Source of the DNA: Candidatus Aadella gelida
GTDB taxonomy: Bacteria; Omnitrophota; Gorgyraeia; Tantalellales; Tantalellaceae
Assembly (NCBI GenBank): GCA_030765205.1
Contig: JAVCDB010000033.1
Location: forward strand, 1 to 45,701
Direction: 5' to 3'
Length of the DNA stretch: 45,701 nucleotides
The notes under the pieces were generated by a model that had not been told where the DNA came from, did no database searches, and saw only the letters and a list, made by a program, of their open reading frames with translations. Of the stretch, positions 191 to 45,701 are shown one piece after another (the stretch's first letter is position 1; each line of letters begins with the position of its first letter). Position numbers and translations under genes: made by a program.

Positions 191-583
191 ATGAAAAGTA
201 CGGATGTTATTGTTGGAGGATTGATACTAATTCTTATTGTAGCGAGCGGAGCCTTTTTTATGCAGATCACTGAGATGAGGCATGAGATGGAACTCCAAGC
301 ACGCGAGATCGATGAAGCGATGCGGGGAGAGGATTATGTGCCGCAGAAAGAGGTGGAGAGTTTTTCTAAAGAGATATCTTTGAGGATTGAAGGATTGTCT
401 GAAGATATTGATGATCTTAGAGAAGAGATGAATCGTGCTCCCGAAACTTCCGGAGGATCTGACGTAGCTGCTGAGATAGGCCGCGAATTTGAGATGCGAT
501 TCACTACTATCAATGATGAGATAACGGGTATACAAAATACCGTGCGTAATCTAGAGAATCAGATAAACAGGGGAACAAGATAG
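191..583 (+). CDS. membrane-anchored coiled-coil hypothetical protein
   Basis: The family is not recognised. The 130-residue product has an N-terminal hydrophobic segment (about residues 6-24) followed by a charged, heptad-like region rich in Glu, Ile, Leu and Arg that should form a coiled coil, broken by a Gly/Ser-rich turn near residues 90-96. It is probably anchored in the inner membrane with the coiled coil projecting outward. The ATG at 191 is preferred over an in-frame ATG at 167 because AAGGGGGG lies 7 bases before it. It is followed 21 bases later by another small anchored protein, with which it probably forms an operon. No enzyme motif is visible. Confidence 0.6.
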   Translation: MKSTDVIVGGLILILIVASGAFFMQITEMRHEMELQAREIDEAMRGEDYVPQKEVESFSKEISLRIEGLSEDIDDLREEMNRAPETSGGSDVAAEIGREFEMRFTTINDEITGIQNTVRNLENQINRGTR

Positions 584-604
584 TCCTAGGATAAGGGAGG
601 GAAT

Positions 605-1015
605 ATGAAAAAGTTCCTGATAGTGATAACGTGTATTGCTATATTTGTCGGGGGATGGCTATTGTATGCTAGGGCTGTTCTTCCAGCGTTCGATAAGAAA
701 GTCAACGAGTTTCATGAAAAGTATAATGAACGTGATTTTGAATACATATATGGAACACTTGTGAGCCAAGAGTTCAAGCGCGCCCTTCCTTACAAGATAT
801 TTTCGGATTATATGGATAAGGTGTATTCGACTGTTGGGAAAGTACTTGAATCTGAACGCGGCGGATGGGGCGTATTTTACAAGGACATAGGGTTGACATT
901 CAACGCCGAATATGACATCAAGAACGAAAGAGGGGAACTTTTAGAAAAATTTACTTTCATAAAGCGCGGAAAAGACTGGCTAATATTCGTATATGATCCC
1001 AGGATGAAAAGTTAA
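605..1015 (+). CDS. membrane-anchored or exported hypothetical protein
   Basis: The 136-residue protein begins with a Lys pair and a hydrophobic stretch (residues 4-22), either a signal anchor or an uncleaved signal peptide. The remaining ~110 residues have mixed alpha/beta character with an end pattern (FTFIKRGKDWLIFVYDP) like small NTF2-like or DUF4019/DUF3887-type extracytoplasmic domains. That resemblance is only suggestive. The RBS AAGGGAGGG lies just upstream of the ATG. It sits between the coiled-coil gene and a flavoprotein gene, 13 bases before the latter. No catalytic residues can be named. Confidence 0.6.
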   Translation: MKKFLIVITCIAIFVGGWLLYARAVLPAFDKKVNEFHEKYNERDFEYIYGTLVSQEFKRALPYKIFSDYMDKVYSTVGKVLESERGGWGVFYKDIGLTFNAEYDIKNERGELLEKFTFIKRGKDWLIFVYDPRMKS

Positions 1016-1028
1016 TAGGCGGTGAAAC

Positions 1029-1454
1029 ATGGAAAATAAGGAATTGAAGGGAAAGATCCTTGATGTGATCAAAAAGTATCCTGTAGGGGCTTTGGGGACC
1101 ATTAAGGATGGTAGCCCATGGGTGAGGTATATGGCGATGAATCCGGAAGACGATTTAACGCTATATACGACAAGTTTTGCTTTATCGAGAAAGATCGATC
1201 AGATAAAGAACAATAATAGAGTTAATGTGGTATTCGGCGCGGATTCGCAGGATTTTACATTGCCTTATGTTAATGTCAACGGGCAAGCTGAGATTCTTAC
1301 CGATAAGGAAAGTAAGGAAAAATGCTGGTGCGAGATGCTTGAGCAGTTCTTTAGCGGTCCGGACGATCCAAATTATGTTGTTATAAGGATCACTCCGGGA
1401 TCCATAGAATATATGGAACACGGCGCACATGAACCCATAGTATACCAACCATAA
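1029..1454 (+). CDS. pyridoxamine 5'-phosphate oxidase-like flavoprotein
   Basis: The 141-residue protein matches the split-barrel FMN-binding family related to pyridoxamine phosphate oxidase and general stress protein 26. The visible pattern is an N-terminal helix, then PVGALGTIKDGSPWVRYM (first barrel strands), LTLYTTSFALSRKIDQIKNNNRVNVVFG (the typical segment where the K-x2-Q-I-x3-P/N-x-V pattern contacts FMN) and a C-terminal strand ending in EYM. These small proteins bind FMN or F420 and reduce unknown substrates; the substrate cannot be read from sequence. Length is normal for the family. The RBS is weak (GGTG). A strong inverted repeat begins at its stop codon. Confidence 0.75.
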   Translation: MENKELKGKILDVIKKYPVGALGTIKDGSPWVRYMAMNPEDDLTLYTTSFALSRKIDQIKNNNRVNVVFGADSQDFTLPYVNVNGQAEILTDKESKEKCWCEMLEQFFSGPDDPNYVVIRITPGSIEYMEHGAHEPIVYQP

Positions 1455-1520
1455 ATTGGGGCTCCCTCACCCAATATATAAGCCAAAAAATAGCAAGATA
1501 ATTGGGTGAGGGGGCCAATT
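1454..1520. repeat. large inverted repeat downstream of the flavoprotein gene
   Basis: Arm 1454-1475 contains AATTGGGGCT followed by CCCTCACCCAAT. Arm 1501-1520 contains ATTGGGTGAGGG followed by GGCCAATT. The inner 12 bp pair perfectly around a ~25-base AT-rich loop, and the outer AATTGG/CCAATT pairs after an internal bulge. There is no T-run, so it is a poor intrinsic terminator and looks more like a REP-type palindrome. The AATTGGGG end resembles the other GGGG-AATT fragments in the window. Confidence 0.6.
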
Positions 1521-1542
1521 AAAAACACAATTAAAAATACGT

Positions 1543-1571
1543 GTTGACAATTTATGTGGTTACGGTTAAAG
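1543..1571 (+). promoter_or_regulatory. candidate sigma-70 promoter for the SlyD-like gene
   Basis: A consensus -35 TTGACA at 1543-1548 is followed after 17 bases by TAAAGT as a partial -10 box. It lies about 50 bases before the start of the PPIase gene and after the inverted repeat that ends the previous unit. The -10 match is only partial, so the exact start is uncertain. Confidence 0.5.
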
Positions 1572-1622
1572 TGGTTAAGCTGTTATTATGGTTTTTGATA
1601 TGAGATGATTAAGGGAGGCCTT

Positions 1623-2120
1623 GTGAAAAGAATTGTTGCGGTTATGATTTCTTTACTTATTTTAGGGGCTAATCCTTTTTTTGCAGAAGGAGAGAAAATG
1701 ACGATACAAAAAGGCAGTAAAGTTTCTTTTGATTATACTTTAACCGTTGACGGAGAGGTTATCGATTCTTCTGATGGAAGAAGTCCTTTGGAATATGTGC
1801 ACGGCTCTGGGGAGATAATACCCGGTCTAAGCAAGGAACTTGAGGGGATGGCCTCGGGTGAAGAGAAGAAGGTTGCAGTACTTCCTGAAGATGGATACGG
1901 TACAGTTAATCCCAAAGCTTTTCAGGAAGTGTCTAAGGACCGGTTTCCTGAAGAAGTAGAGCTTAAAGAAGGGTTAACTTTGGAGGCCAAAGGGCCGGAA
2001 GGTCAGGCAGTGCCCGTTAGGATCACTGAAGTGAAAGATGAAGCTGTTGTAGTGGATTTTAATCACCCACTTGCCGGGAAATCGTTGACATTTGATGTTA
2101 AAATAGTCGCTGTTCAGTAG
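1623..2120 (+). CDS. SlyD-like FKBP-type peptidyl-prolyl isomerase, probably exported
   Basis: The protein catalyses cis-trans isomerisation of Xaa-Pro bonds and acts as a folding chaperone. From the GTG at 1623 the product has 165 residues: a signal-peptide-like start (KR then ~17 hydrophobic residues), then an FKBP core with VSFDYTLTVDGEVIDSS, a PGLSKELEGM segment, an inserted IF chaperone flap (about residues 95-140) and the closing DFNHPLAGKSLTFDVKI strand typical of SlyD. GTG 1623 follows GGGAGG. An internal ATG at 1698 has its own good RBS (AAGGAG) and would give the normal cytoplasmic SlyD, so two products are possible. The His-rich metal-binding tail of E. coli SlyD is absent. Confidence 0.85.
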   Translation: MKRIVAVMISLLILGANPFFAEGEKMTIQKGSKVSFDYTLTVDGEVIDSSDGRSPLEYVHGSGEIIPGLSKELEGMASGEEKKVAVLPEDGYGTVNPKAFQEVSKDRFPEEVELKEGLTLEAKGPEGQAVPVRITEVKDEAVVVDFNHPLAGKSLTFDVKIVAVQ

Positions 2121-2126
2121 GGATAG

Positions 2127-2155
2127 TTGACTTAAATACATTTGTCAGATATAAT
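2127..2155 (+). promoter_or_regulatory. strong sigma-70 promoter upstream of the cold-shock gene
   Basis: TTGACT at 2127-2132, a 17-base spacer and a perfect TATAAT at 2150-2155. Transcription would start near 2162, giving a ~175-base leader before the cold-shock gene. It begins only 7 bases after the PPIase stop codon. Confidence 0.75.
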
Positions 2156-2237
2156 TAATAATTATAGTGACAAAAAGCGACAAAAAGTGTACAATGTCGC
2201 TGTTAATTGAGAAGGTGAGTATAAGGAGTAGAAGTTT

Positions 2238-2280
2238 TGAGCCACAAGGACTTATAAACGCGCGCCTTGTGGTTTTTTTA
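2238..2280 (+). terminator. intrinsic terminator or attenuator in the cold-shock leader
   Basis: CCACAAGG and CCTTGTGG form an 8-bp stem around a ~15-base loop and are followed directly by a run of seven T. It lies between the strong promoter at 2127 and the cold-shock gene, so it either ends a ~115-base small RNA or attenuates the gene. Another weak promoter (TTGTGG, 17 bases, TATATT) overlaps its right arm and could restart transcription after it. Confidence 0.7.
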
Positions 2281-2336
2281 ATGCCTACATATATTCACTG
2301 AAGTTGGAAAAGAACAGTTAGAAGGAGGGAAGTAAG

Positions 2337-2537
2337 ATGGCTAAAGGAACAGTAAAGTGGTTCAACAACCAAAAAGGTTATGGGTTTATTTCTCCTGAAG
2401 AGGGAAAGGATGTATTCGTACATCATAGCGCAATTCAGGGTGAAGGCTATAAGTCTTTAGATGAAGGCCAGGCAGTTGAATTTGAAATTCAGCAGGGTCC
2501 GAAAGGCGAAGAAGCTATAAATGTAGTAAAGCTGTAA
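2337..2537 (+). CDS. cold-shock protein, CspA family
   Basis: The 66-residue single-domain OB-fold protein binds single-stranded RNA and DNA and melts mRNA structure at low temperature or in fast growth. Both nucleic-acid motifs are intact: RNP1 KGYGFI (residues 13-18) and RNP2 VFVHH (26-30), with the conserved KWFN start. Length is exactly that of the family. A strong RBS (AAGGAGGG) precedes the ATG. The gene is preceded by a long leader with a terminator-like hairpin and is closed by a strong intrinsic terminator, so it is monocistronic. The leader could provide temperature-dependent control as known for cspA, but the structure here is not homologous by eye. Confidence 0.95.
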
Positions 2538-2556
2538 TTGATCGTTGCGAAAGCAG

Positions 2557-2612
2557 AAAGAGAGGGTATAGTATCAGGCGAAGAGCCGGTGCTATACCCT
2601 CTCTTTTTTTTG
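2557..2612 (+). terminator. intrinsic terminator after the cold-shock gene
   Basis: AAAGAGAGGGTATAG (2557-2571) and its exact reverse complement (2592-2606) form a 15-bp stem, followed by a continuous T-run. It is one of the strongest terminators in the window. Confidence 0.9.
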
Positions 2613-2690
2613 GGAAAATATTCTCATGTAAATATTCATGTATTTATTGGGGGGAATTGCTATAATATTATGAAGGGTAGGTGATCTTAT

Positions 2691-3095
2691 ATGGACAAGT
2701 TTATTATACAGTTAATTGCCACCAGCAGGATATTGATAGCTGGATTCTTTTTATCTACCGTGGGTTTCTTTGTCGCAATGTCACTGACTTCGATGAGGGT
2801 ATCTGAGGGCGCTAAGATGCTTGGAATACTTGGGATAGCATATCTAGCGGCATATATCCTTAACGGCATAGCTCTTATGAGACTAAAGGAGCATGCCCGG
2901 AAAGATGCTTTATATATGGATTGGGGTATAATCCTTTTTGACGGTATATTTTTTGTCGGAATGAGCCTGGTCTCGGATATAAAATATGGCGGGTTCAGTT
3001 CGCTTTTTTATAGAACACATGGTTCGCTTATTCTTGTGCTACTGATATTTGTATGGGTTTTCGGAAGACCATCCATTAGAAGACAGTTCAAGTGA
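2691..3095 (+). CDS. small integral membrane protein, four predicted helices
   Basis: The 134-residue product is not recognised. Hydrophobic segments at about residues 10-32, 43-64, 77-93 and 107-124 suggest four transmembrane helices with short, positively charged loops and a basic C-terminal tail (RPSIRRQFK), probably cytoplasmic. No catalytic or ligand motif is visible. It begins after a TATAAT box near 2661 and a GGTAGGTGA-type RBS, and is followed 27 bases later by a second four-helix protein; the two are probably co-transcribed and may act together. Confidence 0.65.
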   Translation: MDKFIIQLIATSRILIAGFFLSTVGFFVAMSLTSMRVSEGAKMLGILGIAYLAAYILNGIALMRLKEHARKDALYMDWGIILFDGIFFVGMSLVSDIKYGGFSSLFYRTHGSLILVLLIFVWVFGRPSIRRQFK

Positions 3096-3122
3096 TCTAG
3101 AACAAAATTAAGGAGGATAGTT

Positions 3123-3506
3123 ATGGGGAATGCTGTATTTATCGCCAAACTTGTGGGACCTTTCCTGACGGTTGTAGGTATAGGGATATTGTTGAATCTT
3201 AAGGACTATGATAAAGTTCTCGAAGATTTTACAAAAAATTCCGCATTGCTCTATATGGGTGGATTGATGTCTCTGGTCGTGGGCATGCTGATATTATTGT
3301 ACAGCAATGTATGGGTCCTTGGCTGGGAGGTTATAATCACTATTGTAGGTTGGCTCTCTTTGCTCAAAGGTATACTTTTGATAGTTGCTCCCGGGATCAT
3401 GATAAAAATGGCTTCGAAATGGAAAAGCAAAACCGGTGCATTAGCCGGTCATTCCGTTTTTCTTATCGGGTTTGGAGTGGTTCTTATTATAAGAGGTTAC
3501 TTCTAA
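3123..3506 (+). CDS. small integral membrane protein, four predicted helices
   Basis: The 127-residue product is not assigned to a family with certainty. It has hydrophobic segments at about residues 7-24, 41-60, 66-90 and 107-125, with a GWLSLLKGILLIVAPG stretch resembling small YtpI-like or DUF2065-like membrane proteins, a weak resemblance only. A strong RBS (AAGGAGGA) precedes the ATG. It probably forms a two-gene operon with the preceding membrane protein. A 9-bp hairpin (AGATTAAAG/CTTTAATCT, 3514-3538) without a T-run follows the stop codon. Confidence 0.6.
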   Translation: MGNAVFIAKLVGPFLTVVGIGILLNLKDYDKVLEDFTKNSALLYMGGLMSLVVGMLILLYSNVWVLGWEVIITIVGWLSLLKGILLIVAPGIMIKMASKWKSKTGALAGHSVFLIGFGVVLIIRGYF

Positions 3507-3577
3507 AGCCGGGAGATTAAAGGGAAACTCTTTAATCTAAAGAAAGAAGAGGAAATCTCTCCTCCTACGGGAACTCC

Positions 3578-3605
3578 TTGACAAAAAAGCTCAACACAAT
3601 ATAAT
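3578..3605 (+). promoter_or_regulatory. sigma-70 promoter for the EF-G-like gene
   Basis: TTGACA at 3578-3583, a 16-base spacer and TATAAT at 3600-3605, both perfect boxes. The expected start near 3612 gives a leader of about 143 bases before the coding region. Confidence 0.8.
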
Positions 3606-3631
3606 AATAATATCGTACATGTTTCGAGATT

Positions 3632-3730
3632 TTCCGAGTCCCCGGACCTTGTTATTCCTCAGTTCCCGGTCCTCTCTCGGAAGGGGGGAGCAGGACTTAA
3701 GAACCTTACGGCTTATTTTGTGAGCCGTAA
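3632..3730 (+). promoter_or_regulatory. structured 5' leader of the EF-G-like gene
   Basis: Nested pairing is visible: TTCCGAG (3632-3638) with CTCGGAA (3676-3682), and inside it GGACC (3644-3648) with GGTCC (3668-3672). A second hairpin pairs TTACGGCT (3706-3713) with AGCCGTAA (3723-3730). The RBS GGAAGGAG follows at about 3741. No known riboswitch class is recognised; a regulatory role is inference. Confidence 0.45.
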
Positions 3731-3754
3731 ATCCATTTAACGGAAGGAGTCTAA

Positions 3755-5809
3755 ATGTCTGTTTCAACAAAAGATATCCGCAATATTGTTTTCTTATCCC
3801 ATTCAGGGGCGGGTAAGACCACTTTAGTGGAAAACCTTCTTTTCAAAGGAGGTACCATATCAAAACTAGGTAATGTAAAAAGCGGGACCACTGTTTCAGA
3901 TTATTGTGACGATGAGAAAGAGAGTGCGCATTCTATTAACCTTTCGGTTTCATCTTATGAAACCGGCGGGATTAAAGTTAATCTGTTGGATGCTCCGGGG
4001 TACCTAGATTACGTAGGTGAAGTGTCTTCGGGTGTTAATGCCGCGGATTCTGCCATGCTCGTGATAGATGCCACGGGGGGAGTACAGGTAGGCACCAATA
4101 AATTCTGGAAATTGGCCAAAGCGAGATCTTTACCGGGAATGATAGTGATAAACAAAATGGATAAAGATAATGCTGATTTTGAGAAAGTTCTTGAGAATGT
4201 GAAAAACAGATTTGGAAAGCATTGCATAGCCTTATGTTATCCCAACGGTAAAGGTGCAACGTTTTCGGGTATGGCTAATCTTCTTACGAAAGATGGGCTA
4301 GATAAACTTGAAGGCACAGATAAGGAACGAGCGGATAAACTTGCGAGTGATCTGACTGAAGGTGTTGCAGAATCTGATGACGCTCTTTTGGAAAAATATC
4401 TAGAAGAAGGTGAACTATCAACGGAAGAGCTAAAGAAAGCTTTCAGAGCAGGTGTTGTCTCAGGAAAGATCGTTCCGGTTATCCCGGCTTCTTTCGAAAA
4501 AGGGATAGGTATAGAACAGATCATGACCATGATACGTGACTATATGGCGTCACCGGAAGATAGACCCGGAGTTGAGGTACCGCCCGCAGGAGAAGATGCA
4601 GAACCTGTAGTGATCAAGCCTGACGCGAATGCTTCGTTTTCCGCACAGATCTTCAAGACTATATCCGATCCTTATGCCGGACAAATATCTATATTTAAGG
4701 TTATATCGGGTAAAGCGGTGTCTAGCCAGATCGTAAAGAATACTACTACTGATAATTCTGAAAAGCTGGGGCAGCTCTTTTTTCTTAAGGGAAAAGACCA
4801 GATCCAGGCGGAATTCGTCGTTGCGGGGGATATTGCAGCAGCAGCTAAATTCAAGAACACGCACACGGGAGACTCTCTTTCAGACGACAAAAAACCTTTA
4901 AGGTTCGCCAAAATGAATTTTCCGGAACCGGCAATAAGTTTCTCTATCAAACCCAAAAGTCGTTCGGATGAAGACAAAATATCGGGTGTTCTGGGAAAAT
5001 TGGTTGAAGAGGATCGTACGTTCCAAATGACTCTCGACGAAGAAACACATGAACTTGTTGTCTCGGGTATGGGTGAGATGCATCTTAAGACCATGCTTAA
5101 CAGAATGAAGAGCCGTTACGGGGTAGACGTTGAGGTTGGAACTCCTAAAGTCGCTTACAAGGAAACCGTTATGGGGCAGGGGGACTCCAAATACCGTCAT
5201 AAAAAACAATCTGGTGGTGCGGGGCAATTCGCTGAAGTATGGATGAGGATCGAGCCTATGGAAAGAGGCTCCGGATTTGAGTTTGTAGATGAAGTCGTGG
5301 GAGGCGCAATACCCAAACAACTTGTAGGAAGTTGTGAAAAAGGTGTATTAGGTGCATTGAAATCCGGGTTTATGGCAGGTTACCCGGTGACGGATATTAA
5401 GGTCATTGTATATGACGGAAAGACACATCCCGTAGATTCCAAAGATATAGCTTTTCAGATAGCTGCGGCTCATGCGTTTCGTGAATCGTGCGAGAAAGCT
5501 AAATCATCGCTTCTTGAGCCCATAATGAATGTTGAGCTTACCGTTCCTGAAGAGAATATGGGTGACATCACAGGATCCTTGAGTTCTAGACGCGGTCGGG
5601 TGCAGGGTATGGATTCTGAAGGGGGCATGCAGGTAGTTAAGGCCAAAATACCTCTCGAAGAAATGTATAAATATGCGAATGAATTAAAGTCTATTACTGC
5701 CGGAAGAGCGACCTATACGATGTCATTCTCTCACTACGATGTTGTTCCGAGTAATATAGCGCAGAAGATAATAGATGCAAGTAGTAAGGCTAAAAAGAAA
5801 TCAGAATAA
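3755..5809 (+). CDS. elongation factor G-like GTPase (EF-G2/FusA2 type)
   Basis: A 684-residue translational GTPase with the EF-G domain order: G domain with P-loop SHSGAGKT (15-22), DAPGY (79-83) and NKMD (133-136), then domain II (~290-385), domain III, domain IV and the C-terminal domain V. In canonical EF-G the G3 motif is D-T-P-G-H with a catalytic His; here Tyr83 replaces it, as in the EF-G2/FusA2 branch (for example Thermus EF-G-2), which has ribosome-dependent GTPase activity but an unclear role. It is therefore probably not the main translocase. It stands alone after its own promoter and leader, not in a str operon, and is followed 45 bases later by yebC. Confidence 0.9.
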   Translation: MSVSTKDIRNIVFLSHSGAGKTTLVENLLFKGGTISKLGNVKSGTTVSDYCDDEKESAHSINLSVSSYETGGIKVNLLDAPGYLDYVGEVSSGVNAADSAMLVIDATGGVQVGTNKFWKLAKARSLPGMIVINKMDKDNADFEKVLENVKNRFGKHCIALCYPNGKGATFSGMANLLTKDGLDKLEGTDKERADKLASDLTEGVAESDDALLEKYLEEGELSTEELKKAFRAGVVSGKIVPVIPASFEKGIGIEQIMTMIRDYMASPEDRPGVEVPPAGEDAEPVVIKPDANASFSAQIFKTISDPYAGQISIFKVISGKAVSSQIVKNTTTDNSEKLGQLFFLKGKDQIQAEFVVAGDIAAAAKFKNTHTGDSLSDDKKPLRFAKMNFPEPAISFSIKPKSRSDEDKISGVLGKLVEEDRTFQMTLDEETHELVVSGMGEMHLKTMLNRMKSRYGVDVEVGTPKVAYKETVMGQGDSKYRHKKQSGGAGQFAEVWMRIEPMERGSGFEFVDEVVGGAIPKQLVGSCEKGVLGALKSGFMAGYPVTDIKVIVYDGKTHPVDSKDIAFQIAAAHAFRESCEKAKSSLLEPIMNVELTVPEENMGDITGSLSSRRGRVQGMDSEGGMQVVKAKIPLEEMYKYANELKSITAGRATYTMSFSHYDVVPSNIAQKIIDASSKAKKKSE

Positions 5810-5854
5810 CAGAAATAAGGATTAATACTTCAAAGGTGAGTTCAGGAGGAACAC

Positions 5855-6604
5855 ATGTCAGGTCATTCAAAATGGGCCAGTATTAAACATAAAAAAGGTG
5901 CATTAGATGCTAAACGCGGAAAAATATTCACTAAACTTATAAGAGAAATAACTGTTGCTGCCAGAGAAGGCGGCGGCAATATGGATTCGAATCCCAGGTT
6001 AAGGTTGGCTATACAAAAGGCCAAAGATGCAAATATGCCTGCGGATAATATTGATCGTGGTGTAAAAAAAGGTACTGGAGAGCTGGAAGGGGTATCTTAC
6101 GAGAATGTGTCTTTTGAGGGATACGCCCCGGGCGGAGTAGCTGTCATAGTTGAAGGTCTTACGGATAACAGGAACAGAACTACCGGTGACGTGAGAAGTA
6201 TATTCTCTAAACGTGGCGGGAATATGGCCGGTGCCGGATCTGTTGCTTTTCAGTTCGAAAGAAAAGGTGTTTTTTTAGTGAAAGTATCAGATGCTAAAGA
6301 AGACGAACTTTTGGATATAGCACTCGAGGCCGGTGCAGAGGATCTTACTTCTGATGAAGATTTTTTTCAGGTAACTTGTGCGCCTCAAGAATTCGATAAA
6401 GTAAGGACAGGACTCACGGAAAAAGGCGTTAGGATCGATTCGGGAGAGTTAAGTATGGTTCCCAAAAACACGGTCAAAGTGGATGATGTCGATACAGCTA
6501 AAAAAATACTCACGCTCGTTGAGGAACTGGAAGACAACGATGATGTGCAGGAGGTATATACTAATTTCGATATTCCGGATGAAGTACTTAAAAGTATGGA
6601 ATAG
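5855..6604 (+). CDS. yebC: YebC/PmpR/TACO1 family protein
   Basis: The 249-residue protein begins with the family signature MSGHSKWASIKHKKGALDAKRGK and has the usual length and three-domain plan. Members were described as DNA-binding regulators; more recent work on the family points to a role on the ribosome, relieving stalling at difficult sequences. The neighbourhood fits both views: it follows a translational GTPase and is 4 bases upstream of ruvC, the classical yebC-ruvCAB arrangement. A strong RBS (CAGGAGGA) precedes the start. No unusual residues are seen. Confidence 0.95.
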   Translation: MSGHSKWASIKHKKGALDAKRGKIFTKLIREITVAAREGGGNMDSNPRLRLAIQKAKDANMPADNIDRGVKKGTGELEGVSYENVSFEGYAPGGVAVIVEGLTDNRNRTTGDVRSIFSKRGGNMAGAGSVAFQFERKGVFLVKVSDAKEDELLDIALEAGAEDLTSDEDFFQVTCAPQEFDKVRTGLTEKGVRIDSGELSMVPKNTVKVDDVDTAKKILTLVEELEDNDDVQEVYTNFDIPDEVLKSME

Positions 6605-6608
6605 ATAA

Positions 6609-7100
6609 ATGAAAATATTAGGTGTAGATCCGGGATTGATAAGAACAGGGTACGGTGTTATCGAGGCTAAAGGGCCCGATAAAATGAAACTTATTGAAGC
6701 CGGGCTTATTAAGACATCTGCCGAAGATGGCATTTCGGCGAGGCTCAAGGATATTTACAGTAACCTTACGGATGTGATAAAAGAACATAAACCGAAAGTT
6801 CTTGTTCTTGAAAAGTTGTATTCGCATTATAAACATCCGGCCACTTCTATTCTTATGGGTCATGCGCGCGGTGTGATCTGTTTGGCATGCGGGATGAACA
6901 AAGTGGAGCTGATCAGTTATCCGGCCACGCGTATTAAGAAATCTGTTACAGGTAACGGGAGCGCAAGTAAAGCGCAGGTGCAGCAAATGGTGAAATCTTT
7001 GCTTGGACTTGGCAGAGCACCTGAACCGTATGATATAAGCGATGCTCTTGCTATGGCAATAAGCTATGTTTATATAGAAGGGATAGGTTCTAGGTGCTAG
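6609..7100 (+). CDS. ruvC: crossover junction endodeoxyribonuclease RuvC
   Basis: RuvC cuts Holliday junctions symmetrically after RuvAB branch migration. The 163-residue protein has the RNase H-like fold with its four acidic residues in place: D7 in GVDPG, E68 in VLEK, and D142 and D145 in DISDALA. It starts 4 bases after yebC without a clear RBS, suggesting translational coupling. Its last codons (GGT TCT AGG TGC TAG) are part of a 7-mer repeat array that continues into the intergenic space, so the repeat has shaped the C-terminus. Confidence 0.95.
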   Translation: MKILGVDPGLIRTGYGVIEAKGPDKMKLIEAGLIKTSAEDGISARLKDIYSNLTDVIKEHKPKVLVLEKLYSHYKHPATSILMGHARGVICLACGMNKVELISYPATRIKKSVTGNGSASKAQVQQMVKSLLGLGRAPEPYDISDALAMAISYVYIEGIGSRC

Positions 7101-7215
7101 GTTATAGGTTTTAGGTTAGAGTATAAGGACTGATGTTCTAATGTTTTTTGCGACTAAATTAAGATAGAGCATCGGGCTTTATCCCTTTAACCTAGCACCT
7201 AGAACCTAAAACCTT
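7084..7215. repeat. inverted heptamer arrays between ruvC and ruvA
   Basis: The left array is five consecutive 7-mers from 7084 (TAGGTTC, TAGGTGC, TAGGTTA, TAGGTTT, TAGGTTA). The right array from 7186 is four 7-mers of the complementary type (TTTAACC, TAGCACC, TAGAACC, TAAAACC). The 19 bases at 7086-7104 are the exact reverse complement of 7188-7206. The intervening ~80 bases hold no gene. The array overlaps the ruvC stop codon. Confidence 0.85.
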
Positions 7216-7238
7216 AAAAATAGTGAGTCAGGAGGGAT

Positions 7239-7865
7239 ATGATAGCTCGTATATCCGGCGTTGTTGCGGGGAAAAAGGAAAATACACTTATTTTGGATAC
7301 AGGAGGGATGTGTTATGAAGTGCTCATTCCTCTTGCTGTTATGAATTCTATCAAAGAAGAGAAGACTTTCGAAGAAAAGGTCGAGCTTATAACATATCAT
7401 TATTTTCAAATGTCTCAGACGTCAGCTGTCCCTATACTAATTGGTTTCCAGAACGATATTGAAAAAGAGTTTTTCGAGAAGTTCATCTCAGTATCGGGAA
7501 TAGGACCCAAAGCCGCTTGTAGAGCCTTAGCAGAGCCTTTTTCCGTTATAGCGGGTGCGATAGACCGCGGGGACGAAGTGTATCTTAAAAAACTTCCCGG
7601 GATAGGAAGCCGAAAAGCTGCTGAAATTGTGGCCAAACTTAGAGGTAGGGTCGGGAAGTATGGTCTCATCCAAGATGACGAAAGACGAGAGACGAAGAAC
7701 GAGAAAGAAGACATTAAGTCTGACGCTCTTGAGATATTGCTTCAGCTTCAGTATAAGAAAAATGAGGCTGAAAATATGATAGAAAAAGCGCTGCAAAGGG
7801 AACCGGAACTAAAGACAAGCGAAGAACTTTTGAATGAAGTATATAGAGAAAGATCGGGGAAATAA
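7239..7865 (+). CDS. ruvA: Holliday junction branch migration protein RuvA
   Basis: RuvA binds four-way junctions and loads the RuvB motor. The 208-residue protein has the three expected parts: an N-terminal OB fold (residues 1-65, MIARISGVVAGK...), tandem helix-hairpin-helix motifs (ISVSGIGPKAACRAL and LKKLPGIGSRKAAEIV), and after a charged linker (residues ~143-160) a C-terminal three-helix domain that contacts RuvB. The RBS AGGAGGG is strong. The following 77 bases before ruvB contain a heptamer repeat. Confidence 0.95.
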   Translation: MIARISGVVAGKKENTLILDTGGMCYEVLIPLAVMNSIKEEKTFEEKVELITYHYFQMSQTSAVPILIGFQNDIEKEFFEKFISVSGIGPKAACRALAEPFSVIAGAIDRGDEVYLKKLPGIGSRKAAEIVAKLRGRVGKYGLIQDDERRETKNEKEDIKSDALEILLQLQYKKNEAENMIEKALQREPELKTSEELLNEVYRERSGK

Positions 7866-7869
7866 AAGA

Positions 7870-7918
7870 GACTATAGACCATTGACTATTGACCATAGAC
7901 ATATAATGACCGATGTGG
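7870..7918. repeat. heptamer array with TGACCGATGTG core, ruvA-ruvB
   Basis: 7-mers GACTATA, GACCATT, GACTATT, GACCATA, GACATAT run from 7870 to 7904 and are followed by AATGACCGATGTGG (7905-7918). The same core follows similar arrays at 10393, 14250, 24533 and 27177. Confidence 0.75.
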
Positions 7919-7942
7919 AAAAAGTTTAAAGGGTAACCAAAT

Positions 7943-8995
7943 ATGAGTGAAGAGGCTAAAAGACAAAAGTTTGAGGATAAAGGGGAAGAGATCATTCGTC
8001 AGGAAGAGACAGAAGACGATCTTATAATGAACTTGTCTCTCAGGCCCCAGATGCTGTCCGATTTTGTCGGCCAGAATTCAGTGGTTGATTCTCTTTTAAT
8101 AGCGATCGAAGCTTCCAGAAAAAGAGATGAACCTATGGAACATCTTCTTTTATCGGGACCTCCGGGACTCGGGAAAACGTCTCTAGCAAGGATAATCGCA
8201 AATGAAAGAGGTTCCAAAATAACCGCTACTTCAGGACCTGCGATAGATAGAGCGGGTGATCTTATAGGTATAATGACCAATCTTGCCGAAGGTGACGTTC
8301 TTTTTATAGATGAAATACACAGGCTTTCAAAAGTAGTAGAGGAATTCATTTATCCGGCAATGGAAAACTCTCAAATAGATTTCTTGGTAGATAAAGGGCC
8401 ATATGCAAAGACCGTAAAATTCAATCTCAAAAGGTTCACGCTTATAGGGGCGACTACGCGGTCGGGTCTTTTGAGCGCTCCGCTTCGGGATAGATTCGGC
8501 ATATCATATCATCTTGATTTTTATTCTTCAGAGGATCTGGTCCAGATAATCAAACGGTCTGCGGGTCTTTTGGGTATACATGTCGACGAGGAAGGGGCTT
8601 TTGAGATAGCTATAAGATCTAGAGGGACTCCACGTATAGCTAACAGGCTTCTTAGAAGAGTAAGAGATTGGGTTGAGGTCAAAGCTGACGGCAAAATAAC
8701 AGCCGAAGCCGCAGTAAATGCGCTTGCTATACATGGTATTGATGAAAAAGGTCTTAATCGAATAGATAGAAAATTGCTTGATGTTATGTACTCTTCATAT
8801 AAAGGAGGTCCGGTCGGCATAGAAGCGTTGGCATCGTCGCTTAATGAGGAATCGGACACTATAGAGGACGTTGTCGAGCCGTATCTTCTAAAAATGGGTT
8901 TTTTACGACGTACTCCACGCGGGCGGGAACTTACAGAAGAAGCCGTTAAATATATAGGGAAAATAAGCGGCCAGAAGAAAGATCTTTTCAGTTAA
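7943..8995 (+). CDS. ruvB: Holliday junction DNA helicase RuvB
   Basis: The AAA+ motor of the RuvAB branch-migration complex, 350 residues. Walker A SGPPGLGKTS (71-80), Walker B FIDEIHRL (D123, E124), sensor 1 GATTRSG and the arginine-finger region PLRDRFG are all visible, followed by the winged-helix C-terminal domain (GPVGIEALASSL...PYLLKMGFLRRTPRGR). The N-terminus is about 15 residues longer and more acidic than in many RuvB proteins, which may be a start-site question; the annotated ATG has only a modest RBS (AAAGGGT). It completes the ruvCAB cluster. Confidence 0.95.
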   Translation: MSEEAKRQKFEDKGEEIIRQEETEDDLIMNLSLRPQMLSDFVGQNSVVDSLLIAIEASRKRDEPMEHLLLSGPPGLGKTSLARIIANERGSKITATSGPAIDRAGDLIGIMTNLAEGDVLFIDEIHRLSKVVEEFIYPAMENSQIDFLVDKGPYAKTVKFNLKRFTLIGATTRSGLLSAPLRDRFGISYHLDFYSSEDLVQIIKRSAGLLGIHVDEEGAFEIAIRSRGTPRIANRLLRRVRDWVEVKADGKITAEAAVNALAIHGIDEKGLNRIDRKLLDVMYSSYKGGPVGIEALASSLNEESDTIEDVVEPYLLKMGFLRRTPRGRELTEEAVKYIGKISGQKKDLFS

Positions 8996-9204
8996 TGAGC
9001 GAGGTTCCGGCCAGGCGTATCAAATCGGGTCAGATAAATAGTGAAAAGTATTGTCACATGTCAGCAAACTTCCCAGTTTTTTAATAGAACGCAAAAAATT
9101 TATGTTATATTTTCCAGCTGTTACTTATATCCGCGACAGTGTGGTCTTTTAGGTATGGATGAATATAACCTGTAGAAAATAGCGCGAAATTTAACCTTTA
9201 TGTT

Positions 9205-10368
9205 ATGAAAAAAGTTACGAGTGTGATCATTATTTTTCTGGCGGGGATTTTATGTTTTAGGTTCTTTTTGGTGCCGCCGAGTACATATATCACCAAGAAA
9301 GAACCTTTTATGGTGCGCGTAAGATTACTCAAGAGTTCGGATAAAATAGATATTTCTTCTCTATCGGGATGTAAGGTAGTCAAAAAGGGGACGGATATTA
9401 TTCTTGGAAACTATGGGAAGGACCTTTCAGTGCGGCCTGAGGAAAGATCTATACTCATCAATGACCAGAAACTTTCCGTAGGTGGAGTAACGATTATTCC
9501 GAAAAAGAAGGATACTTTACTTGTTAATAAGACTAGGTATAGAGGTGAAATAAATATATTAAATACTCCTAGTGGTCTTGACGTGATCAATGTTGTTGGA
9601 CTTGAGAATTATCTTAAAGGCGTTGTTCCTCGGGAGATGAACCGGTTCTGGCCGATGGCTGCCATGCAAGCGCAGGCAATAGCATCGCGGAGTTTTGCTG
9701 CAGGAAAAGCCTTGGGAAGGACAAAAGAAGAATATGATATAAGGGCAGATACATTTTCGCAGGTTTACGGAGGCCGTTCAAGTGAAAGATGGCGGTCTAC
9801 TAAGGCTGTCGTTGGTACAAAAGATAAGGTGCTGGTATATGACGGAGAGGTTGTTCCTGCGTATTTTCATTCATGTTGCGGAGGGTATACCCGAGACGTA
9901 TCCGAAGCCTGGGGAGGACGACAGAAACCACTGAAAAAGGTTAGATGTGAGTACTGTAAATTATCACCGCATTTTAGGTGGAGAATAAAGATACCTCAGA
10001 AAGAGATACAAGAAAAGCTTAATAAAAAAGGATATTCTATAGAACGTATAGACGATATAATTGAGGGAGAGAGAGATACCTCCGGCAGGATGAAATATCT
10101 GAGGATAAAATCTGGGAACAGGTGGTTCGAGATCAAGGTCGACGAGTTTCGTTCGGCGGTAGGCAGCAGGACAATAAAAAGTTCAAATTTTCATATAAAA
10201 AAATATCCAAGGTTCTATCTGTTCAGCGGGTATGGATGGGGGCATGGCGTGGGAATGTGCCAGTGGGGAGCTTTAGGAATGGCTTTAAAAAGGAACAGTA
10301 AAGAGAAAATATTGGATAAGTATTATCCCGGAGCAGAAATAAAGGAATTAAGTAAGGTGGTAAAGTGA
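9205..10368 (+). CDS. SpoIID/LytB domain protein (peptidoglycan remodelling)
   Basis: The 387-residue exported protein has an N-terminal hydrophobic signal segment (residues 4-20) and a SpoIID domain: GLENYLKGVVPREM, WPMAAMQAQAIASRSFA, the CCGG segment in FHSCCGGYTRDVSEAWGG, and the closing GYGWGHGVGMCQWGA motif. SpoIID of Bacillus is a lytic transglycosylase; related proteins in non-sporulating bacteria act on denuded glycan strands. No other sporulation gene is here, so a vegetative wall or division role is inferred. The 209-base gap before it shows only an AT-rich stretch and no clear promoter. Its stop codon begins a heptamer array. Confidence 0.9.
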   Translation: MKKVTSVIIIFLAGILCFRFFLVPPSTYITKKEPFMVRVRLLKSSDKIDISSLSGCKVVKKGTDIILGNYGKDLSVRPEERSILINDQKLSVGGVTIIPKKKDTLLVNKTRYRGEINILNTPSGLDVINVVGLENYLKGVVPREMNRFWPMAAMQAQAIASRSFAAGKALGRTKEEYDIRADTFSQVYGGRSSERWRSTKAVVGTKDKVLVYDGEVVPAYFHSCCGGYTRDVSEAWGGRQKPLKKVRCEYCKLSPHFRWRIKIPQKEIQEKLNKKGYSIERIDDIIEGERDTSGRMKYLRIKSGNRWFEIKVDEFRSAVGSRTIKSSNFHIKKYPRFYLFSGYGWGHGVGMCQWGALGMALKRNSKEKILDKYYPGAEIKELSKVVK

Positions 10369-42653: not shown

Positions 42654-42683
42654 TTTACATATTATGCACAAGGGTATTATAAT
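42654..42683 (+). promoter_or_regulatory. sigma-70 promoter of the giant secreted protein gene
   Basis: TTTACA (42654-42659), an 18-base spacer and TATAAT (42678-42683). It lies 44 bases before the GTG start and gives a short leader with RBS GGAGG. Confidence 0.7.
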
Positions 42684-42726: not shown

Positions 42727-45701
42727 GTGAATCGTATAAAAAACAATATTTTCAGCAATATCCTATCAATACTCGTTTTATTTACGTTCTTGTCTTCAAA
42801 TCTCACCATAGCTAACGGTACCGAGCTATCTTATCAAAATATTTCTCCTCCATGGATAATGGCCGCGTCTCCTTCACCCGGGAGAGAAGCTTTTCAGCGG
42901 CAAGTTCTGTCTCATTGGACATACAATTATGTGTTTCTAACCATATCTAAATTTCTCTTGGAAAAACGCGGAGAAACAGAAGAATTGAAAAGTTTCTTAA
43001 AAGAAGCATTATCGGGAAGAGAGAAAGAAATAAGGGATATGTATGTTTTTATTGATGAGGTCACGGTCGCGAGAGATAAGGTAAGGATACTTTTCAAAAA
43101 GGACGGTAAAAGGGGCGTAGCCGAAATATGGAGAGCTCCGGAAAATGAAGACCAAAAATTTGTTATCATGATAAGACCCGATGAAGTGAACGCTTCCGGT
43201 ATCGGAGAAGGTCAGGATAAGGATAGGCGTTTTGATATATCGCGGATGTCAGTTGCTTCTCTTTCTCTGGAAGGCTTTATTCCCGAACTGAAAGAAAAAG
43301 AAGCGATAGAGGCAAACACTAGAGGGGGCTTGGGTGCGTATGACGGGGATAAACAGGAAGGGCTAGCCCGGATCGGAGCTGCTGGTATGGGTTTTCAACC
43401 CGGATACGCGTTAGGATCTATAGACGGAGAGATCACGAAGGTCGATTATAAAAAACTTGCTGAAGAAGGAATAATAGAAGCCGTGGATACCGGTGATGAA
43501 GCTCTCGAGGTTTGGGCCGGTGCGGAAGACAACCTGGTAACTGGGGAACACTACGATAATAATGTCAAGACCAGGGTAGAGGTATACAGGGTGAACCGCG
43601 GAGGGACCTGGAAATATATCTTTGTTTCCGATGTTTTTGACAGGTTATACGCGGACGGATTCCTGCACAGGTTCATGCAACAGGTGGTATTCGGTAAAGC
43701 GGTATATGTGTTCATGAAAAAGCATAATGTAAGGCCGGATATCATTCATCTAAACGAGACCCCTCCAGTTGTCGCCGCCATGTTAATAAGGGCCGATGAA
43801 AATTTTAACGATACCGCTATAGTCTATACTAACCATACTCTTGTCCCTGCTGGCTTTCATGATCAGAGGTTCAGCCGTAGGCGAATAGGACTGGATGTGG
43901 GGCGTATGGAATATCTTATGGGACTTCCAGAAAATAAAGTCGATAATTTTAGGAAATTTTTTATGAGGAATGGTAATACGGTGGATTTCTGTCACGCGGC
44001 AATGAAAATAGCGGATGTCATAAACGCGGTAAGCGATGAGCATGCTGAACGAACCGTAAAACTATTTAGGGACGAATATGGGGTAGATCTTGAGGGTAAA
44101 GTAATCGGGGTCCTTAACGGTTCCGGAGAGGAATGGGTCAGTGCCGGTCTGAAAGACTTGATGGAAAAAGGGAGCCTGCCTACAGCTGACGAGATATGGG
44201 AAAATCACGAAGCCAATAAAGGCGAGGTGTATGAGGAAATAGAGGAACGTACTGGCATAAAGTTGGATCCGAAAAAACTTACTATGTGGGCGGTGCGTAG
44301 GATAGTTGAATATAAGAGCCAGTATCCGGTCCTTCGGTTCATTGTGTATATTCTGTGTTCAAGCAAGGAAGAATCCTTTACCCGCGAGAGACTTATGGAA
44401 CTGTGGCGGCGGGATATGCCAGCTCTATCAGGAAAATATGCCGGAAAGGTCTATAATAAAGATATAGAGAGGACCGCGGAACACATACTGGATAGGCTTT
44501 TCGCCGGCAGGGATACTATAAACGGTCTTGATATGCAATTAGTTATAGGAGGGCCAGAATATGAGAAAGATTGGGGAAGACAATTCCGTAAATGGATGAG
44601 GGATATCCCGGAGATCAACGGGAACGTGGTGTTTTTGGAAAATCATGAACCAAGTCTTCTGTATACGCAGGCCATAGCTTCGGATATATGCATCAATATG
44701 CCCAGACCGTTCGAAGAAGCTTGCGGAACCTCCGACCAGCGCAGTGCCCGCAACGGCGGCGTTAATATCGCTTTAATGGGGGCGGGTCCGGTCGAGTGGA
44801 TGAGGGAATATAATGAAAAGACCGGCAATGGTAGCGGATTCTTCATCGGGCCGTATCTACGTGAGACCGGGGACGGTGCAGAGGCCGATCTCAAAAGTTT
44901 TTACAATAATGCACCCGTTGATGTTCTCCTGAAAGCCGAAAAAGCTTCGGGACTTTTCAGGAGAAGAAGCAAACTTAAATGGAAAGGGCTTATGCTCAAT
45001 GCTTTTATGGACAGCACTTTCGGGCTGGACAAAAAAGCGGTTACCGCATATGCTATGGAGGAAAGATATGCTAGTCTGGTATATCGTAACGCTATTGCCG
45101 AAAGAAGAGGCATAGATAGTGTCAGAAAAAAGGAGAGGACCTTGCTGGAACAATTGCTTGAACCGGATATGGAAAAAGAACCCGTAAAATATACAGCGTA
45201 TAAGGTAGCCGGTCTTATTGGCAAGGATAATATTGACGATGCGGTCAGAGAATTTTGTATTAAGTATTTGAGTTCCAATGAAGAGGGAAATGACTTTACT
45301 GTCAAGATGTTCAACATGTTGATAAGCGCGGCTGACAAGGATAAAGGAGTCATTGGTAGGATCAGAGAGTTTTCTAAGGGGATAAAGCAAGAGATTAGAG
45401 AAGTTATAACAGATCCTGAGGCATTATGGTATTTTCAGAATATAATAGGTCAGGCAGTTGTTATCTTGTCTGCTGTAGAAGACGGGATAAAAGGTGCCGG
45501 AGAGATGAGGGTAACTAATGATTCCGGTAATATGCTGCAAGCGGGAGATAAAGACAGAGGCCAAAGTTTTATAGATGAAAGTAGTATTCCAACGGGACTA
45601 GGGTCGGCCGGTGCGGAGGGTATGCCGGGTGCATATGACAGGGGATATGAGACGTTCAAGAAATTGGGCGACAATATCCTGGAAGACTTGGTATATGGTC
45701 G
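42727..45701 (+). CDS. large secreted glycogen-phosphorylase-like protein, 3' end outside window
   Basis: An open frame of at least 991 codons runs off the right edge. GTG 42727 follows GGAGG, and an in-frame TAA at 42712 excludes earlier starts. Residues 1-29 form a signal peptide. Residues ~35-740 resemble alpha-glucan phosphorylases: GGLG (200-203), IHLNE (340-344), YTNHTLVPAG (367-376), NAVSDEH, VRRIVEYK (523-530), VVFLENHEPSL and PFEEACGTSDQR (661-672). In phosphorylases the last motif reads EASGTSGMK, whose Lys holds pyridoxal phosphate; here it is R672. It may be inactive, PLP-free or a binding module. Residues ~920-985 are a Gly-rich linker, suggesting more domains downstream. Confidence 0.8.
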   Translation, partial: MNRIKNNIFSNILSILVLFTFLSSNLTIANGTELSYQNISPPWIMAASPSPGREAFQRQVLSHWTYNYVFLTISKFLLEKRGETEELKSFLKEALSGREKEIRDMYVFIDEVTVARDKVRILFKKDGKRGVAEIWRAPENEDQKFVIMIRPDEVNASGIGEGQDKDRRFDISRMSVASLSLEGFIPELKEKEAIEANTRGGLGAYDGDKQEGLARIGAAGMGFQPGYALGSIDGEITKVDYKKLAEEGIIEAVDTGDEALEVWAGAEDNLVTGEHYDNNVKTRVEVYRVNRGGTWKYIFVSDVFDRLYADGFLHRFMQQVVFGKAVYVFMKKHNVRPDIIHLNETPPVVAAMLIRADENFNDTAIVYTNHTLVPAGFHDQRFSRRRIGLDVGRMEYLMGLPENKVDNFRKFFMRNGNTVDFCHAAMKIADVINAVSDEHAERTVKLFRDEYGVDLEGKVIGVLNGSGEEWVSAGLKDLMEKGSLPTADEIWENHEANKGEVYEEIEERTGIKLDPKKLTMWAVRRIVEYKSQYPVLRFIVYILCSSKEESFTRERLMELWRRDMPALSGKYAGKVYNKDIERTAEHILDRLFAGRDTINGLDMQLVIGGPEYEKDWGRQFRKWMRDIPEINGNVVFLENHEPSLLYTQAIASDICINMPRPFEEACGTSDQRSARNGGVNIALMGAGPVEWMREYNEKTGNGSGFFIGPYLRETGDGAEADLKSFYNNAPVDVLLKAEKASGLFRRRSKLKWKGLMLNAFMDSTFGLDKKAVTAYAMEERYASLVYRNAIAERRGIDSVRKKERTLLEQLLEPDMEKEPVKYTAYKVAGLIGKDNIDDAVREFCIKYLSSNEEGNDFTVKMFNMLISAADKDKGVIGRIREFSKGIKQEIREVITDPEALWYFQNIIGQAVVILSAVEDGIKGAGEMRVTNDSGNMLQAGDKDRGQSFIDESSIPTGLGSAGAEGMPGAYDRGYETFKKLGDNILEDLVYG

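Follow-up and report, generated by a model that had tools for sequence, protein, structure and literature searches.

To our knowledge, GT35 is the only glycosyltransferase family that depends on PLP. The residue numbering used below is mapped to rabbit phosphorylase, and the roles of the active-site residues are those generally given for that enzyme. Among glycosyltransferases, the GT4 trehalose phosphorylases show that a retaining phosphorylase can do without PLP. GT4 is listed as retaining (PMC8950772). A published proposal has PLP take the place of a nucleotide in an NDP-sugar-dependent proto-GT35 (PMC11046441). The locus described here also touches on the giant open reading frames of Omnitrophota (PMC10066038), among which V. 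archaeovorus has a protein of 39,678 aa; multi-domain giants that mix polysaccharide enzymes, methylases and others are described in a second paper (PMC12419801). No report of a GT35 clade lacking the PLP lysine was found in the openly accessible journal papers searched.

The window, that is, the whole stretch of 45,701 nt that was analysed, is an entire contig, C62, from a MAG of 1.59 Mb. The open end of the frame of interest is thus an assembly end. The frame and its signals, all on the forward strand, are as follows.

42727..45701, forward strand: open reading frame with a GTG start at 42727, 991 codons, stop-free up to the contig end
42718..42723, forward strand: Shine-Dalgarno sequence GGAGGA ahead of the GTG start, read from the sequence
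42654..42683, forward strand: sigma-70-like promoter TTTACA-18-TATAAT, a consensus match alone, at 11/12 positions, where shuffles of the region yield 2.3 promoter-like hits
42727..42816, forward strand: signal-peptide-like N-terminus (aa 1-30) by a home-made heuristic, with a helix at 2-26 in the model
42886..43179, forward strand: N-terminal domain (aa 54-151), seen in BLAST to L043, L045 and L047 and in the model, common to family proteins without this GT-B domain or with another
43240..45117, forward strand: GT35-type GT-B domain without the PLP lysine (aa 172-797), from profile searches, AlphaFold model and Foldseek
45142..45480, forward strand: helical module (aa 806-918), seen in BLAST to L042-L050 and in the model, which opens the shared C-terminal part and is cut by the contig end

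A sequence-only reading of this DNA had described a secreted giant protein with its own promoter, still open after 991 codons, and much of that description holds. The upstream gene is divergent, and the ORF therefore needs a separate promoter. The N-terminus has a basic start followed by a hydrophobic stretch, and the home-made signal-peptide rule is positive for it and for 15/15 complete clade members from Omnitrophota and Elusimicrobia, and negative for eight controls; the rule flags 6/28 genes of the window, mostly plausible exported or membrane proteins. By this heuristic the protein is probably exported. The word giant suits the relatives, which occur in very large open frames, and membership of a family of large multi-domain proteins is borne out; the window protein itself is probably of about 1,500 aa at full length, as judged by homology. 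The missing 510-540 residues or so, again by homology, did not turn up on the other contigs of the assembly. Joining the ORF to contig C96 was considered and rejected, as the protein there is another, complete one, sharing only the C-terminal domain.

By profile searches and predicted structure, the central domain is a GT-B fold of the phosphorylase (GT35) type, as the sequence-only reading had proposed from an alignment by eye. Searched as a single sequence, it matches TIGR02094 with E=2e-23, at 83 bits below the curated cut-off of 191.7, and PF00343 with 5.5e-5, at 22.1 bits below the cut-off of 27; the GT5 profile PF08323 is matched above its cut-off (2.5e-10, 40.9 against 22.7) and the GT5 profile TIGR02095 below it (47.7 against 328). 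A family profile built from 21 relatives, run against PDB sequences, finds the S. copri phosphorylase at 2e-42 over 563 columns, classical phosphorylases at about 1e-22 and GT5 enzymes at best at 6e-7. The AlphaFold model of the ORF has a mean pLDDT of 79, the GT-B core being mostly above 85, and in Foldseek it retrieves phosphorylase at E 9e-24, all 50 of the 50 listed PDB matches being GT35. The TM-scores of 0.4-0.5 are those expected when a multi-domain protein with movable domains is compared as a whole query. A viral fold search gave generic GT-B matches only. Membership of GT5 is rejected because profile and fold both point to GT35; in addition, the window has RGGLG in place of the GT5 motif K-[TV]-G-G-L, the K/R lying one position closer to the glycines in 23/35 clade members, and EACGTS in place of E-P-C-G-L.

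The residues that carry the main finding are the following.

43321..43347, forward strand: glycine loop RGGLGAYDG (aa 199-207), in which GGLG follows a basic residue that PLP-bearing GT35 lacks at this place
43825..43851, forward strand: YTNHTLVPA with His370 (phosphorylase His377), His in 35/35 of the clade
44110..44136, forward strand: VLNGSGEEW with Asn464 (Asn484), Asn in 35/35 of the clade
44296..44316, forward strand: RRIVEYK with R524 (K568 position), R525 (R569) and K530 (K574), being R, R and K in 35/35
44716..44742, forward strand: EACGTSDQR with E664 (equivalent of Glu672) and R672 at the PLP-lysine position (codon CGC, 44740-44742)

Arg672 had been placed opposite the PLP lysine by the sequence-only reading. 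It takes that position exactly in every alignment made. The exchange extends well beyond this locus: among 35 non-redundant clade members the position is Arg in 33, Lys in one (L007 and L037 being a single gene) and Ala in one (L143), so that conservation in homologues, which the earlier reading had suggested checking, is confirmed. Lys is kept, by contrast, at each of the 33 ordinary GT35 loci checked from the phylum, of which 19 are of TIGR02094 type and 14 are classical. On these alignments Arg at the PLP-lysine position is a clade-wide trait. The position of Tyr648, a contact of the PLP ring, is Tyr in 0/35 clade members and in 21/21 aligned PLP enzymes. The equivalents of H377, N484, R569, K574 and E672 are kept in 35/35 members at roughly 25-50% identity; the phosphate-contact residues G675 and T676 are also kept, and the Met679 position is mostly Gln. 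The Arg at the K568 position, which had been pointed out as a neighbouring exchange, was considered as further evidence that function has been lost; it is ordinary, being found in 15/15 PLP-bearing TIGR02094 enzymes aligned. Two features are unlike PLP-bearing GT35 and reminiscent, in the alignments, of GT5: a basic residue directly before GGLG (23/35 in the clade, 0/21 in PLP GT35), and the Cys of E-x-C-G (20/35 in the clade, 6/6 in GT5), where PLP GT35 has Ser (21/21). The member with Lys (L037, 2865-5702, forward strand) lies inside the Arg clade, reads GTSNMK at the PLP position and has Phe at the Tyr648 position; its Lys is possibly a reversion or a retention.

Strong matches (>330 bits) are present in 33/384 genomes of the phylum. 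The clade is also found in two Planctomycetota records and one Elusimicrobia record, homologues being mostly from Omnitrophota, in support of the origin that had been guessed for this DNA. A tree rooted with GT5 places the Arg clade (support 91) outside the whole of PLP-bearing GT35 (97), as its sister group. AU tests do not reject its grouping with TIGR02094 (p=0.316) and do reject its grouping with the classical phosphorylases alone (p=0.023). By these sequence comparisons the Arg clade is a previously unlabelled branch within or beside GT35. We favour a secondary loss of PLP over an ancient PLP-free line because the taxonomic range is narrow and the branches are long. That the clade is a surviving PLP-free proto-GT35 line, older than the recruitment of PLP and a link between the GT5 synthases and the phosphorylases with PLP, we regard as unlikely.

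The domain is one module of a family with a common N-terminal part (aa 1-164), a common C-terminal part (from about aa 800) and differing middles: a Lys-bearing phosphorylase in L043, a divergent GT-B in L042 and L045, and none in L047, L048 and L050. The region that had been read as linker-like is preceded by the helical module, so that the description applies only to what follows it. Downstream domains could be followed through the relatives. The helical part is succeeded by a module that Foldseek matches (E 1.6e-5) to the cupin phosphoglucose isomerase of archaea, all of the top 10 hits being that enzyme; a PDB sequence search with this module was uninformative, and the fold was found by Foldseek instead. 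In L047 (residues ~345-605) the module has H-x-Q, and its P-G-Y motif lacks a His; from such motifs, read by eye, the metal site is apparently altered. Next comes a C-terminal domain of ~250 aa without a Pfam match, which is present in 18/99 related genomes, most of which belong to that family. In 20/20 proteins examined the open frame ends with this domain, and those with a complete N-terminus are signal-peptide-like, making it a candidate sorting or anchoring domain. Proteins ending in it carry GT2+HD, radical SAM+B12, methyltransferase+deaminase, PRTase or GT-B (L101, L104-L106, L108, L111-L115). One is encoded on C96 of the window's own genome (L053, 4401-10982, forward strand), a signal-peptide-like B12-binding/radical-SAM/methyltransferase protein of 2,193 aa; the same contig encodes a signal-peptide-like, transketolase-like protein of 1,283 aa (349-4200, reverse strand) with GGG where GDG is expected. 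Both of these long proteins are assembled from enzymes of a cytosolic type. The missing tail of the window protein is predicted by homology to consist of the cupin isomerase-like domain and the shared C-terminal domain.

Elsewhere in the clade the phosphorylase-like module keeps company with sugar-phosphate and glucan modules. It is fused directly to a PGM whose TASHN and DGDADR motifs are intact (L033), and lies beside PGI and GT5 (L057), beside a GT5-type GT-B and iPGM (L055), or beside GH13-like domains (L032, L034), the GH13-like neighbours having lost the nucleophile in 2/3. The mosaic protein L032, of 2,499 aa and signal-peptide-like, also contains a sigma-70 region 4 domain (residues 2133-2185, Pfam 7e-7). 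The longest open frame with such a module has 70,450 codons (G173:C2, around 138404). In Planctomycetota (L063/L064) the module is a stand-alone gene of 643 aa (9914-11845 in L063) with Arg and without a signal peptide, and the gene next to it, in divergent orientation, encodes a GT5-like GT-B domain; in L063 this neighbour (4115-9628, reverse strand) encodes 1,837 aa and has, by eye, a GH13-like part as well. Conversely, the Lys is present in the phosphorylase of L043, a protein with a signal peptide, and in that of L153, an open frame of 12,255 codons. The sequence-only reading had tied a PLP-free fold to a place outside the cytoplasm; loss of the lysine and probable export both stand, but export as the cause of the loss is contradicted by these two exceptions, Arg without a signal peptide and Lys in a mosaic or giant protein.

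We propose, with a probability of about 0.5, that this GT35-related clade lacks covalent PLP and would act as a PLP-free retaining GT-B enzyme on NDP-glucose or on Glc1P/Pi, as a module of exported mosaic proteins. This reading is preferred because the fold, the donor-sugar and phosphate residues and the sugar-phosphate context are kept while the PLP lysine and Tyr648 are lost. The window domain would then probably act on sugars without PLP. A nucleotide sugar might occupy the place that PLP has in phosphorylase, or free phosphate/glucose-1-phosphate might be used, PLP-free, as in GT4 trehalose phosphorylases; phosphate could be held in part by R672 and by the basic residue in front of the GGLG loop, and the substrate would be an alpha-glucan. 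The proposal has to reckon with the expected absence of both NDP-sugars and PLP outside the cytoplasm, where another source of activated sugar would be needed, and the Lys of L037 suggests that the position may be less strict. The partner modules with lost catalytic residues, namely the GH13-like nucleophile (2/3) and the apparently changed metal ligands of the cupin isomerase-like module, favour the main rival, in which the GT35 fold serves a surface or exported mosaic as a pseudoenzyme that binds glycans or sugar phosphates for adhesion, sensing or scaffolding. The loss of the lysine itself, the signal-peptide-like N-termini of the complete Omnitrophota and Elusimicrobia members and the GGG of the exported transketolase-like protein in the same genome point the same way. 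Binding alone, however, would not need five donor-sugar and phosphate residues invariant in 35 sequences, and an intact PGM is fused alongside the domain in L033; we therefore hold a pseudoenzyme to be possible but rather unlikely.

The Schiff base of glycogen phosphorylase is itself dispensable for catalysis. This, together with the retention of R569, K574, G675 and T676, would fit a phosphorylase in which PLP is still the cofactor but is held non-covalently, Arg standing in for Lys. The ring contact at Tyr648 is nevertheless lost in every member and Met679 has mostly become Gln, and we consider such an enzyme improbable. Decay of an ordinary GT35 phosphorylase could be tolerated through redundancy, given the separate intact phosphorylase at C108 of the same genome; yet Arg recurs in 33/35 members across three phyla and many genomes, in intact frames with invariant catalytic residues, which makes decay, or an error of sequencing or of alignment at this position, very hard to credit.

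With the phosphorylase fold and sugar site but no PLP lysine, the clade makes the proto-GT35 proposal (PMC11046441) testable. The clade raises the questions of which donor is used and whether restoring Lys restores PLP binding. For the exported mosaic proteins and giants of Omnitrophota, whose functions are obscure, it supplies a biochemical theme of alpha-glucan and sugar-phosphate modules.

Compared with known systems, the phosphorylase-like module lies in giant frames of the published Omnitrophota kind, although the passages available from those papers (PMC10066038, PMC12419801) name no phosphorylase-type domain. The likeness to GT4 trehalose phosphorylases would be one of the proposed mechanism; no specific sequence link with them was found. 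The GT5 synthases (GlgA; PF08323) resemble the clade in the absence of PLP, probable for the clade, in a donor-site Arg/Lys pair, His and Glu, and, for much of the clade, in the Cys of E-x-C-G; they differ in that the clade has E-A-C-G-T-S rather than E-P-C-G-L, a longer domain of GT35 type and a better match to GT35 in profile and fold. Classical phosphorylases (TIGR02093; rabbit GP, E. coli GlgP/MalP) share the fold and the glucose and phosphate residues, but are more distant from the clade, read KR..YK and keep the Lys. Closest are the TIGR02094 phosphorylases (GT35; S. copri 9l6i/20yr), with the same GT-B fold, motif order, RR..YK, His377, Asn484 and E-A-x-G-T-S; the clade departs from them in the Arg that replaces the PLP lysine, the lost pocket Tyr, the basic residue before GGLG and its place as a module of mosaic proteins.
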